Of a stretch of 33,120 bases of DNA, positions 13,722 through 18,132 are shown piece by piece. The position numbers were made by a program, and so were the translations under genes. Every line of letters begins with the position of its first letter. Position 1 is the first letter of the stretch. Origin of the DNA: Candidatus Bathycorpusculum sp. (GTDB taxonomy: Archaea; Thermoproteota; Bathyarchaeia; Bathyarchaeales; Bathycorpusculaceae); contig WQYG01000013.1 in the NCBI GenBank assembly GCA_009781395.1, positions 1 through 33,120 of the forward strand, read 5' to 3'. The notes under the pieces are model-generated. The model saw nothing but the letters and a program-made list of their open reading frames with translations, made no database searches and was not told the DNA's origin.

Positions 13722-15332
13722 ATGCTATTACTTGCCATTTCTACATCTCTATTAGTTCTACCTCTTTCTACCCTTCACGCAGCAAACACAGATACCACCT
13801 CTTGGACAAAACTTGCCAACATGCCTACCAGTCGTGGTGGCTTAGACTTAGCTGTAGTGTCAGACAAAATCTATGCCATAGGCGGTTCAAATAATGACAG
13901 TGATCTTGATATAAATGAAATGTATGACCCTGTAACCGATAGGTGGTCTGTTAAAACGTCTATGCCCACTGCCCGAACAGGTTTTGCCACTGCCGTTCAT
14001 GCAAACAAAATTTATGTCATCGGCGGCTCAATTGATGATAACCTCACAGGCACTGTAGAAGTTTATGACCCCGTTAGTGATACTTGGCAAACTTTAGCTT
14101 CTATGCCTACCTCAAGAGCTGATTTAACGGCAAATGTTGTTGGAGACAAAATCTATCTCATAGGTGGTAAAATATACCTAAATACTTCCCCCTACTACAC
14201 TCAAACAAATGTTAACCAAGTTTATGATATTAAAACTAACACTTGGTCCACAAACACTTCCATGCCTATTGCCCTTCAAGGCCACACCTCAACTGTAATA
14301 GACACAAAAATATATGTCATAGGAGGCTCTAGACAGTCTCTTTCCGGAGTTGACACCTCAACTAGTACATTACAAATTTATGATACTGAAACAGGCAAAT
14401 GGTCAAATGGTCAACCTTTGATTTTTCCCTCTAGCTATGGCGCAGCTGTTGCAACAGTAGGCGATATGGCACCAACAAAAATTTATTATGCCGGCGGTTT
14501 TTCTATTGAAACCTTTACTGATAGAACACAAATTTATGATGTTGAACATGATTTTTGGAGTGAGGGCCCAAAAATGTCTTCCAAACGAGCCTACTTAGGT
14601 GTAGCCGTTGTAGCCGATATTATATATGCAATCGGCGGTCTTGACGGAGAAAAATGGTTAAACCTCAATGAAGAATTAAAACCCGCCAGTTATGGCAAAG
14701 TTCCTCCCACTATAGAAATTATAAGCCCTCAAAATAAAACCTATAAAAACCTACAAATTGATTACCAAGTTAACAAAGCAGTTTCCTGGGTTGGCTACTC
14801 TTTAGATAACGGTCCAAATATAACTTTGACAAAAACCCCTTTTTCCATAGATAACATACCTAACGGACCCCACTCCATAGTGCTCTTTGCTAGAGACACC
14901 TTGGGAAACATTGGCGTTTCAAAAACAGTATACTTCACAATCGACCAAGCAGTCCCAACAATTACCGTCATAACACCTATACAACAAGCCTACAACACCG
15001 CAGACATAATTCTAACAATCATAGTAGATAAACCTGTTACACAACTCTCCTACAGCCTAAACGACCAACCAGAAGTAACAATCACCGGCAACATCACTCT
15101 ACCTGCATTACCCGACGGAAACCATGTAATAATTGTTCACGCTATCGATGAACTTGGAAACTTGGGAACATCAGACGAAATCGCTTTCACAGTATCAACC
15201 TTCCCAACTTTCTGGGTTGCCACAGCAATTGTTCTAATAATAATACTTCTCACCTCAGGATTTCTAGTAATTAAGCATAAAAAAATCAGCAACAACCTCG
15301 CCATAGAAATACCTGAAAACCTAGCAGAATAA
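13722..15332 (+). CDS. Surface kelch-repeat protein with two Ig-like domains and C-terminal TM anchor
   Basis: Signal-like N-terminus; kelch blades (IYAIGG...YDPVTDRWS...MPTAR); two IEIISPQNKTY/ITVITPIQQAY Ig-like repeats; C-terminal TM TFWVATAIVLIIILLTSGFLVIKHKK. Confidence 0.85.
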   Translation: MLLLAISTSLLVLPLSTLHAANTDTTSWTKLANMPTSRGGLDLAVVSDKIYAIGGSNNDSDLDINEMYDPVTDRWSVKTSMPTARTGFATAVHANKIYVIGGSIDDNLTGTVEVYDPVSDTWQTLASMPTSRADLTANVVGDKIYLIGGKIYLNTSPYYTQTNVNQVYDIKTNTWSTNTSMPIALQGHTSTVIDTKIYVIGGSRQSLSGVDTSTSTLQIYDTETGKWSNGQPLIFPSSYGAAVATVGDMAPTKIYYAGGFSIETFTDRTQIYDVEHDFWSEGPKMSSKRAYLGVAVVADIIYAIGGLDGEKWLNLNEELKPASYGKVPPTIEIISPQNKTYKNLQIDYQVNKAVSWVGYSLDNGPNITLTKTPFSIDNIPNGPHSIVLFARDTLGNIGVSKTVYFTIDQAVPTITVITPIQQAYNTADIILTIIVDKPVTQLSYSLNDQPEVTITGNITLPALPDGNHVIIVHAIDELGNLGTSDEIAFTVSTFPTFWVATAIVLIIILLTSGFLVIKHKKISNNLAIEIPENLAE

Positions 15333-15728: not shown

Positions 15729-15894
15729 TAGCTTGCTCCACTAATTTTTCCTGTTGATTTCTGCAAGTTGTTGTGTTTACTGTTTTTCTGTTTTCTTCTT
15801 GTTGTTGAGTGTTTGTGTGTTAGTTCTTTGTTGGGGTGGTGTGGGGGAAAAAGAGTGCTTAAATATTTGTTTGTTGTGTAGAATGAGGTTGGTT

Positions 15895-16035
15895 GGGGTA
15901 GTAGTATAGCCAGGTATTACGATGGGCTCCAGAAGCAACCAGAATGGGTATGCTGACTTCCTTTGGGAAGAGTGACGAAGTTTTGGAGCTGTAGATACCC
16001 ATTGGTCGTCGGTTCAAATCCGATCTGCCCCACCA
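15895..16035 (+). tRNA. tRNA-Trp(CCA) with intron between positions 37/38 and encoded CCA
   Basis: Acceptor GGGGTAG/CTGCCCC; anticodon stem ATGGG (15922-15926)/CCCAT (15998-16002); anticodon CCA 15929-15931; T-arm GTCGG-TTCAAAT-CCGAT; terminal ACCA. Intron about 15933-15996 (64 nt). Confidence 0.92.
15933..15996 (+). ncRNA. tRNA-Trp intron with half box C/D-like guide module
   Basis: D'-like CTGA (15953-15956), CTTCC/GGGAAG mini-hairpin, C'-like GTGACGA (15972-15978). Upstream guide AATGGGTAT (15943-15951) is perfectly complementary to ATACCCATT (15995-16003). No good terminal C or D box was found. Confidence 0.65.
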
Positions 16036-16113: not shown

Positions 16114-18132
16114 CTGATGTTCAGCTGTTTGCTATAAAATTATGTTGAATTAGTTTCCCTTGTCGAGTTCGCAAAAGCATAGACTAAAAAGTATCAAAGA
16201 GCAGCAAACTATGGGGAACCACCATAACTAGACTTACAATAAAACAGCAGCTAAACAAGAAAATAGTTCCACTAACAATGGCAGTAGCAAACAAAATCAT
16301 CGAAGAACTAGACTTCGTAAACCAAATAAACCAAACAGTAACATGGGACCCAGCCCACTGGAACATAAGCCCCGGTAGCCTAGCCAAAATGCTAATCATG
16401 GGAACCTTCACAGACATGCGCATCCCCCTAACCCGCATCAAAGAACGCTTCGAAAACATAGATACACCATACTTTTTAACCCCCCAAGACAAAACAGGTG
16501 ACTTAAACGAGTTCAACGTAGGCAAAGCCCTAGACCGCATCGCCGAAAAAGACTACCAACAAATATATCAAACAATCGCTCTTAACGCAATTCAAAAATA
16601 CCAAATCCCCCTCACCCGCCTACATAGCGACACCACCACCCTATCATTCTACGGCGAATACGACCTACAAAACAGTTTACTAACCGAAGAAGAGCTAAAA
16701 TCGCTTTTCAAAATAGAGAAAGGCTACAACAAAGACGGCCGGCCTCAATGTAAACAGGTTGTAGTGGGACAAATAACCAATCAAATAGGAATCCCCATAA
16801 TTAACAAAATACAATCAGGCGCAACCAGTGATATAGACTGGAACCGTCAAGCGTTAAATTACCTTGAACAAATACGTGCTAAAGGCTTCAAAGTAGGCCT
16901 CTACGTTGCCGACAGCAAACTAATGACCCAAGAACATGTAACAAAAATGAACACCACAAAAGATCGCATAAATTTTGTGTCACGCTGTCCGGCAAACTTT
17001 GCAGACAAACTAGAAAACCAAATGATAAGTCGAGCTTTTGAAGAAGGTAATTGGGTTGAGTATGGTTCTTTTAGTGAGGCAAAAAAGAAGGATGTTTGTA
17101 CTTATCGTGGAGTAGGTTTTACGCAGATGGTTTATGGTGCGCCTCTGCGTTTGGTGGTGCTTGAAAGTAGTAGCTTGGTGGCAGGTGTTGTGCGTCTTTA
17201 TGAGAAGCAGCAAAAAGAGCTTGAGCCTTTAATTAAAAAGTTGACACAACCAGTTTATAGTTGTTTTAAGGATGCAGAGGCGGCGTCTAAGCGGTTTTTA
17301 GCTTTAAAGCAGACACGTCTCTTTTTGTTTGATATTGATATAGTTAAACAGGAGCAAGGGGTTTGGCCTAAAGGACGCAGGGGACTTAAAACCCAACCTA
17401 AAATTAAAATCACCTATCAAATTGTGCTTAAAAACATTCGGTGCAATGAAGTAGCCTATAAAGTCTTTGAGAGGGAGCAGTCTTGTTTTGTTTTGGTTAG
17501 TAATGCTGTAGGGTTGGCTGATCGGGAGCTTGTTTTGGCGTATAAGGGGCAGGTGGTGGTTGAGAATTCTTTTCGTTTGCTCAAGTCTCCTGCGGTGGCG
17601 TCTGTTATTTATCTAAAAGATCCTTGTCGTATTGGGGTTTTGTCGATGTTGTTGGTGTTTGCGTTGTTGGTGCGTGCTTTGATTGAGTTTAGGTTGCGTG
17701 CGGGGTTGGCGGTTTTTCGGATGCGTAACCCTGAGGGGTCGTTGTGTGCGGGTTGGAGTGGGCGTGAGTTGTCTGCGCCTACGTTTAGGTTGCTCTATGA
17801 GCATGCTTTTAGTTGTTATTTTGAGTGTGAGGGTTTGGAGGGGGGTTATGGTTTTTGTTGGCCTCATAGTGATGCGCAGGTGCGTGTTGGGGCACTTTTG
17901 GATTTGTTAGGTTATAGTCTTGAGCAGCTTGTAGAATAGTAATTATTTGTGTGTTGTGAATGGTTTGTTAGTGGAGTTTATGCCTTTTGGGTGCTTGGTT
18001 TTTAGGGGTGTCAATTTTTTCTTTGTAGTCTTTATAATTTTGTCCATAGCACATCTGCAGCCAAAAACATGTCCTTCAAACCGAAAAACAAAACAAATCA
18101 ACCAACTTTTACCACAAACAGCTGAACATCAG
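16114..18132 (+). mobile_element. Complete IS1634-type (IS4-like) insertion sequence
   Basis: Perfect 18-bp terminal inverted repeats CTGATGTTCAGCTGTTTG (16114-16131) / CAAACAGCTGAACATCAG (18115-18132); flanking 6-bp TSD TTACAT (16108-16113 and 18133-18138); one intact transposase inside. Confidence 0.93.
16278..17939 (+). CDS. IS1634 family DDE transposase
   Basis: LHSDTTTLSFYGEYD (first D), GYNKDGRPQCKQVVVG, GLYVADSKL (second D), AYKGQVVVENSFRLLKSP (E motif, YREK-like). Confidence 0.92.
   Translation: MAVANKIIEELDFVNQINQTVTWDPAHWNISPGSLAKMLIMGTFTDMRIPLTRIKERFENIDTPYFLTPQDKTGDLNEFNVGKALDRIAEKDYQQIYQTIALNAIQKYQIPLTRLHSDTTTLSFYGEYDLQNSLLTEEELKSLFKIEKGYNKDGRPQCKQVVVGQITNQIGIPIINKIQSGATSDIDWNRQALNYLEQIRAKGFKVGLYVADSKLMTQEHVTKMNTTKDRINFVSRCPANFADKLENQMISRAFEEGNWVEYGSFSEAKKKDVCTYRGVGFTQMVYGAPLRLVVLESSSLVAGVVRLYEKQQKELEPLIKKLTQPVYSCFKDAEAASKRFLALKQTRLFLFDIDIVKQEQGVWPKGRRGLKTQPKIKITYQIVLKNIRCNEVAYKVFEREQSCFVLVSNAVGLADRELVLAYKGQVVVENSFRLLKSPAVASVIYLKDPCRIGVLSMLLVFALLVRALIEFRLRAGLAVFRMRNPEGSLCAGWSGRELSAPTFRLLYEHAFSCYFECEGLEGGYGFCWPHSDAQVRVGALLDLLGYSLEQLVE

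Follow-up and report, generated by a model that had tools for sequence, protein, structure and literature searches.

The tRNA-Trp intron and its elements

We asked whether the intron of an archaeal tRNA-Trp gene could encode a guide RNA for the very tRNA that it interrupts. The gene lies in a 33,120-nt stretch of DNA from Candidatus Bathycorpusculum sp. (hereafter the window), which forms contig 13 in an archaeal genome of 2.13 Mb. Positions 15895-16032 match the Rfam family RF00005 (49 bits) and read as tRNA-Trp(CCA); ARAGORN misses the gene because of its intron. Near-identical tRNA-Trp genes are found in Candidatus Bathycorpusculum (L159, L177 and L181; phylum Bathyarchaeota, class Bathyarchaeia). 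A second, intronless tRNA-Trp would make the intron dispensable, and no second tRNA-Trp was present among the model matches read in this assembly, which is 95% complete. The guide intron is the only intron of the window gene. Many Bathyarchaeia tRNA-Trp genes carry an extra intron of ~30 nt just past nt 43 (L012, L015, L018, L033-L036), and some have a further one in the 5' half (L308, L329, L275, L277). The gene is preceded by a Kelch-repeat protein gene (13722-15332) and followed, after ~240 bp, by an ORF of 553 aa (16278-17939), likely a transposase, whose N terminus holds a DUF4277 domain.

The first-pass annotation of the window had described the intron as a box C/D-type guide of the kind found in Haloferax pre-tRNA-Trp, with a clear D'/C' half, in a different archaeal lineage. 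When checked against the sequence, every element it had named (the 64-nt intron, the D' box CTGA, the hairpin and the C' box GTGACGA) was in its place, and the lineage is indeed a different one, the Bathyarchaeia. The guide upstream of D' is perfectly complementary to 9 nt that straddle the 3' splice site, and its N+5 nucleotide (G15948) faces C15998, that is, C39. The second potential guide that had been noted around the anticodon also pairs there, with one G.U, and places G15986, 8 nt past C', opposite C34. The terminal C and D boxes, described as degenerate or absent, are not recognisable in their expected slots (Table 1). One suggestion had to be given up, namely that this is a single-guide version aimed at position 39: both guides exist, and it is the C34 guide that is invariant (72/72 introns, see below). 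Judged from these sequence features and their conservation, the intron is very likely a cis-encoded box C/D-type guide for its own tRNA, with C34 and C39 as predicted targets and C34 placed from C'.

Table 1. Features of the tRNA-Trp gene and its intron (window coordinates)
Feature	Position	Strand	Basis or remark
Possible archaeal TATA box CTTAAATAT, ~30-37 nt upstream of tRNA-Trp	15858..15866	+	by eye
tRNA-Trp exon 1	15895..15932	+	Rfam RF00005 match; last nt G37
Anticodon stem ATGGG / CCCAT	15922-15926 / 15998-16002	+	sequence
Anticodon CCA	15929-15931	+	C34 = 15929
Predicted intron, 64 nt, canonical 37/38	15933..15996	+	sequence; same place in relatives
Empty slot for terminal box C, AGCAACC	15934..15940	+	no box C
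Guide to position 39, AATGGGTAT, upstream of D'	15943..15951	+	9-nt perfect complement of ATACCCATT, 15995-16003
Spacer G between C39 guide and D'	15952	+	sequence
Box D' CTGA	15953..15956	+	CNGA in 69/73 introns sampled without C/D criteria
Hairpin CTTCC (15957-15961) / GGAAG (15966-15970) between D' and C'	15957..15970	+	stem of K-turn
Box C' GTGACGA	15972..15978	+	RTGANGA in 72/73 introns
Guide to position 34, TTTTGGAGC	15981..15989	+	pairs with GCTCCAGAA, 15926-15934, with one G.U
Empty slot for box D, GTAG	15991..15994	+	no box D
tRNA-Trp exon 2	15997..16035	+	starts at A38, C39 = 15998; Rfam match up to 16032; sequence
Encoded CCA	16033-16035	+	sequence

The D'/C' K-turn and the C34 guide are conserved in Bathyarchaeia

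Relatives of the intron were sampled from 260 Bathyarchaeia genomes with a pattern of exon anchors (CTCCAGA, ACCC and the T arm) enclosing an intron of 42-72 nt. Box criteria were kept out of the sampling to avoid circularity. The pattern matched in 73 of the 260 genomes, and 73 introns were analysed (the additional match L203 failed the filter); L030, in which the boxes were mis-called, was excluded from later counts, leaving 72. D' reads CNGA and C' reads RTGANGA in nearly all of them (Table 1). A stem of at least 3 bp connects the two boxes in 86% of the 72 introns compared with 34% in shuffled sequences, with several pair types at stem positions 2-3. As the stem joins D' and C', the two boxes make up a full K-turn with a stem. 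Across the relatives, the D'-C' spacer varies between 5 and 19 nt and the 3' intron tail between 4 and 16 nt. A different hairpin, GCAAAC/GTTTGC, lies near D' in many congeners and was discarded as not general.

Because box D is absent, the register of the C34 guide was measured from C'. In all 72 analysable introns C34 faces a G that lies exactly 8 nt past C', and this offset is the N+5 slot of a would-be D box 12 nt downstream of C', 12 nt being the usual archaeal inter-box distance. In register, 9.0 of 10 positions pair on average; with the target slid by 1 nt, no more than 3.6 do. The guide also changes together with the start of the intron: nt 1-4 form 298 pairs with it where 240 were expected, a value reached in none of 5,000 permutations (uncorrected for relatedness). 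A-T, G-C, T-A and C-G pairs all occur at intron nt 2, and the co-changes include AG-GG/CC, AA/TT and, in Sulfolobales, AT/AT. The base facing A36 varies freely. In L322, L325 and L328 the intron starts with CC and the guide has GG, a double compensatory change adjoining the 5' splice site. The predicted C34 guide is the conserved, invariant core of the intron.

No recognisable terminal box C/D pair

Within 2 nt of the expected slot of the terminal box C, none of the 72 Bathyarchaeia introns matches RTGANGA. The D slot holds GAAA, CGTG, GTAG, GTGA and other sequences with no consistent D box. These introns have apparently lost the terminal C/D pair, one of the two usual protein-binding pairs. 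Could the terminal boxes nevertheless be present in degenerate form, so that a second K-turn forms (e.g. across the circularised junction) and assembles an ordinary two-motif box C/D RNP? Some introns still have GA as the third and fourth letters of the D slot (7 with GTGA, 3 with TGGA), many relatives have RTGAAGA just 5' of the 3' splice site, and in Sulfolobales the C slot sometimes reads RTGA and the D slot GAGA. However, not one C box was found near its slot, and the 19 CNGA matches near the D slot are mostly one sequence, GGAGCGGAA, of a single clade (f25-f27), 2 nt off register. RTGAAGA overlaps nucleotides needed by the bulge-helix-bulge (BHB), and the window has neither RTGAAGA near its splice site nor a near-slot CNGA. 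We therefore regard degenerate terminal boxes as unlikely, although they are the strongest of the alternatives. As a shifted box C, RTGAAGA was rejected, its spacing to D' not being 12; it was also set aside because its GAAG serves the central helix of the BHB.

To see the intron in other archaea, we used a covariance model of the tRNA-Trp gene to search the phylum that holds Thermococci, a sample that lies outside Halobacteriota. The intron was found in 102-103 of its 115 genomes. Records named Methanomicrobia archaeon (L091, L106) and Thermococci archaeon (L116, L135) belong to this one phylum sample, and some of the names look outdated. In all 10 distinct Thermococci introns the terminal C and D boxes are canonical and occupy the exact slots, in the order ATGAGGA or GTGAAGA, 12 nt, CTGA, loop, C', 12 nt, and CTGA or CCGA as the D box. 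The box positions in the two groups thus indicate that the stem-bearing K-turn is the terminal one in Thermococci and the internal one in Bathyarchaeia. Bathyarchaeia are not alone in having the reduced form: it also occurs in a lineage that is sister to Thermococci (L232, L236), in genomes of Asgard archaea (e.g. L276, L278, L289) and in other Thermoproteota.

How, then, would C34 be placed by a guide that has no D box? Tentatively, and with the balance somewhat against it, we propose that fibrillarin is positioned by a 12-nt ruler from the C' box of a single K-turn, and that this one-K-turn form, rather than the two-motif form of Haloferax and Pyrococcus, is the usual state of Bathyarchaeia tRNA-Trp introns and is met again in other Thermoproteota, Asgard archaea and the Thermococci sister lineage. 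A recognisable D box is held to be essential in archaeal C/D sRNPs, which is a point against a D-less guide.

The C39 guide covaries with its target and is dispensable

In shuffled introns, any 9-nt perfect complement to the exon arose in 0.8% of cases and a box-registered 7-bp C39 guide in 0.01% (1/10,000). The comparison with relatives exceeds chance by a much wider margin. Pairing is better between each C39 guide and its own target than after targets are swapped, and none of 10,000 permutations did as well (uncorrected for relatedness). Guide and target covary, at intronic positions too, with GGGTAT/ATACCC in the window and GGGTTT/AAACCC in most relatives; on average 8.0 of 9 positions pair in register, and no more than 3.9 once the target is slid by 1 nt. 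By the criterion used here, 19 of the sampled genera keep the guide throughout, 3 are mixed and 3 have lost it. The window's own genus is affected too, the guide being lost in G013 and G025 (L011, L016). In L201 and L202 (G204, G205), 1-2 extra nt before D' (CTCGA, CTTTGA) move the C39 guide off N+5 while its exon complementarity is retained.

The first-pass annotation had expected boxes and guide-exon pairs to be conserved in relatives, and had reasoned that an intron kept without the pairing or the CTGA would speak against a guide. The C34 guide and D'/C' are conserved and both guides covary; loss of the pairing with the intron kept does occur in some lineages, but it affects position 39 and spares the element as such. 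The predicted C39 guide is real yet dispensable. One could go further and suppose that only the C34 guide works, the complementarity to position 39 being an inherited or drifting remnant and C39 unmethylated in the window organism. The loss of the guide in some genera and its mixed retention in others, with G013 and G025 of the window's own genus among the losses, agree with this, as does P. furiosus, in which Cm39 was predicted and was undetected by mass spectrometry (PMC7668247), a result that counts against C39 methylation. However, covariation throughout 19 genera, perfect pairing over 9 nt in the window and the Um39 that H. volcanii makes (PMC2584109) make an idle C39 guide rather improbable.

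Proposed mode of action and its relation to splicing

A guide RNP would need its proteins, and all three that the annotation had proposed to look for are encoded in the window genome. Nop5 and fibrillarin lie within 2 kb of each other on contig 26, and there are two L7Ae-family proteins. The fibrillarin gene (G000, contig 26, 6306-6985; L001, L002) is split over two frames. The split counts against a guide RNP, though the gene is intact in 12 congeners and an assembly indel is the likely cause.

By analogy with established box C/D biology, L7Ae would bind the K-turn formed by D', the hairpin and C', and Nop5 and fibrillarin would then be recruited. The sequence 5' of D' would pair across the 3' splice junction and, following the N+5 rule, direct C39 to be 2'-O-methylated. 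Its counterpart 3' of C' would bridge the 5' splice junction by pairing with nt 31-37 and the first intron nucleotides, and would direct methylation of C34. Because the terminal D box has decayed, the C34 register would be set by the constant distance of 12 nt from C'. As each guide duplex takes in nucleotides of the intron, a target molecule would have to be methylated before it is spliced. The intron could act in cis, or in trans from another pre-tRNA or as an excised circular intron; since the two duplexes would cross in cis, it is natural to expect them to act in sequence or in trans.

A relaxed hBHBh' splice motif, proposed from a drawing by hand, has 3-nt bulges AGA and ATA, an h' helix AGC/GCT and a central helix CTCC/GTAG that is paired at 3 of 4 positions with one C.U mismatch. 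The minimum free energy fold of the window pre-tRNA prefers the C34-guide duplex in cis (z = -3.0) to this motif, with which the duplex competes in this model. That the pairings are pre-tRNA folding elements, i.e. alternative helices that compete with or prepare the BHB and guide no methylation, would suit this fold and the overlap of the C34 guide with the proposed h' helix, but it leaves unexplained the conserved D'/C', the N+5 position at C39 and why the partner of C34 always lies 8 nt past C', and we consider it very improbable.

Comparison with known guide introns

Archaeal tRNA-Trp introns that nest a box C/D RNA are established (PMC2584109, PMC4090602, PMC7994747). Intron-guided Cm34 and Um39 are known in H. 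volcanii (PMC2584109, PMC7994747), where methylation is sequential and possible in trans (PMC7994747, PMC4090602). Measurements have shown that tRNA-Trp carries Cm34 in S. acidocaldarius, H. volcanii and T. kodakarensis (PMC7668247), and circular tRNA-Trp introns occur in every archaeon reanalysed (PMC12558985). In the literature searched, to which the primary Haloferax and Pyrococcus papers and supplements did not belong, we found no description of the Bathyarchaeia form or of a C'-anchored register; a list of 29 archaea in the supplement of PMC2584109 could hold reduced examples.

Intron-guided methylation of positions 34 and 39, worked out in two euryarchaeal groups, would extend to Bathyarchaeia and beyond. 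Selection appears to hold C' and the wobble guide rather than the position-39 guide or the terminal boxes. Cm34 would limit tRNA-Trp to UGG, away from UGA (PMC7668247), and decoding of UGG only would be a reason for this strong conservation. As natural minimal guides, these introns let one ask whether N+5 is counted from box D or from C'.

The window intron resembles those of Haloferax volcanii and of Pyrococcus/Thermococcus (sR50) in its host tRNA-Trp, its 37/38 position, its D'/C' boxes, its 12-nt box spacing and its guides to 34 and 39 that span the splice junctions. It differs in lacking terminal C and D and in having its stemmed K-turn at D'/C' rather than at the terminal boxes; the comparison of boxes drew on the Thermococci introns, with the exact Haloferax and Pyrococcus box sequences outside it. 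The intron is also shorter than that of H. volcanii (64 versus 103 nt), and position 39 is C, as in the Thermococci introns read here, while it is U in Haloferax. We group it with these guides as a reduced form with one K-turn and two guides rather than as a canonical representative. The Sulfolobales tRNA-Trp intron (L307, L310, L312) shares the 12-nt register from C' to C34, the D'/C' hairpin and the CCA anticodon, although its D' is more degenerate and some copies keep partial remnants of the terminal C (ATGA) and D (GAGA). With archaeal stand-alone box C/D sRNAs the intron has in common the CNGA and RTGANGA boxes, 12-nt guides and the N+5 rule; unlike them, it sits in a tRNA intron, targets its own precursor and has just one box pair that can be recognised. 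In eukaryotes, box C/D snoRNAs whose C'/D' is degenerate likewise combine one stemmed K-turn with a degenerate second site that may guide, but their host genes and targets are unrelated, and the resemblance is one of layout only.
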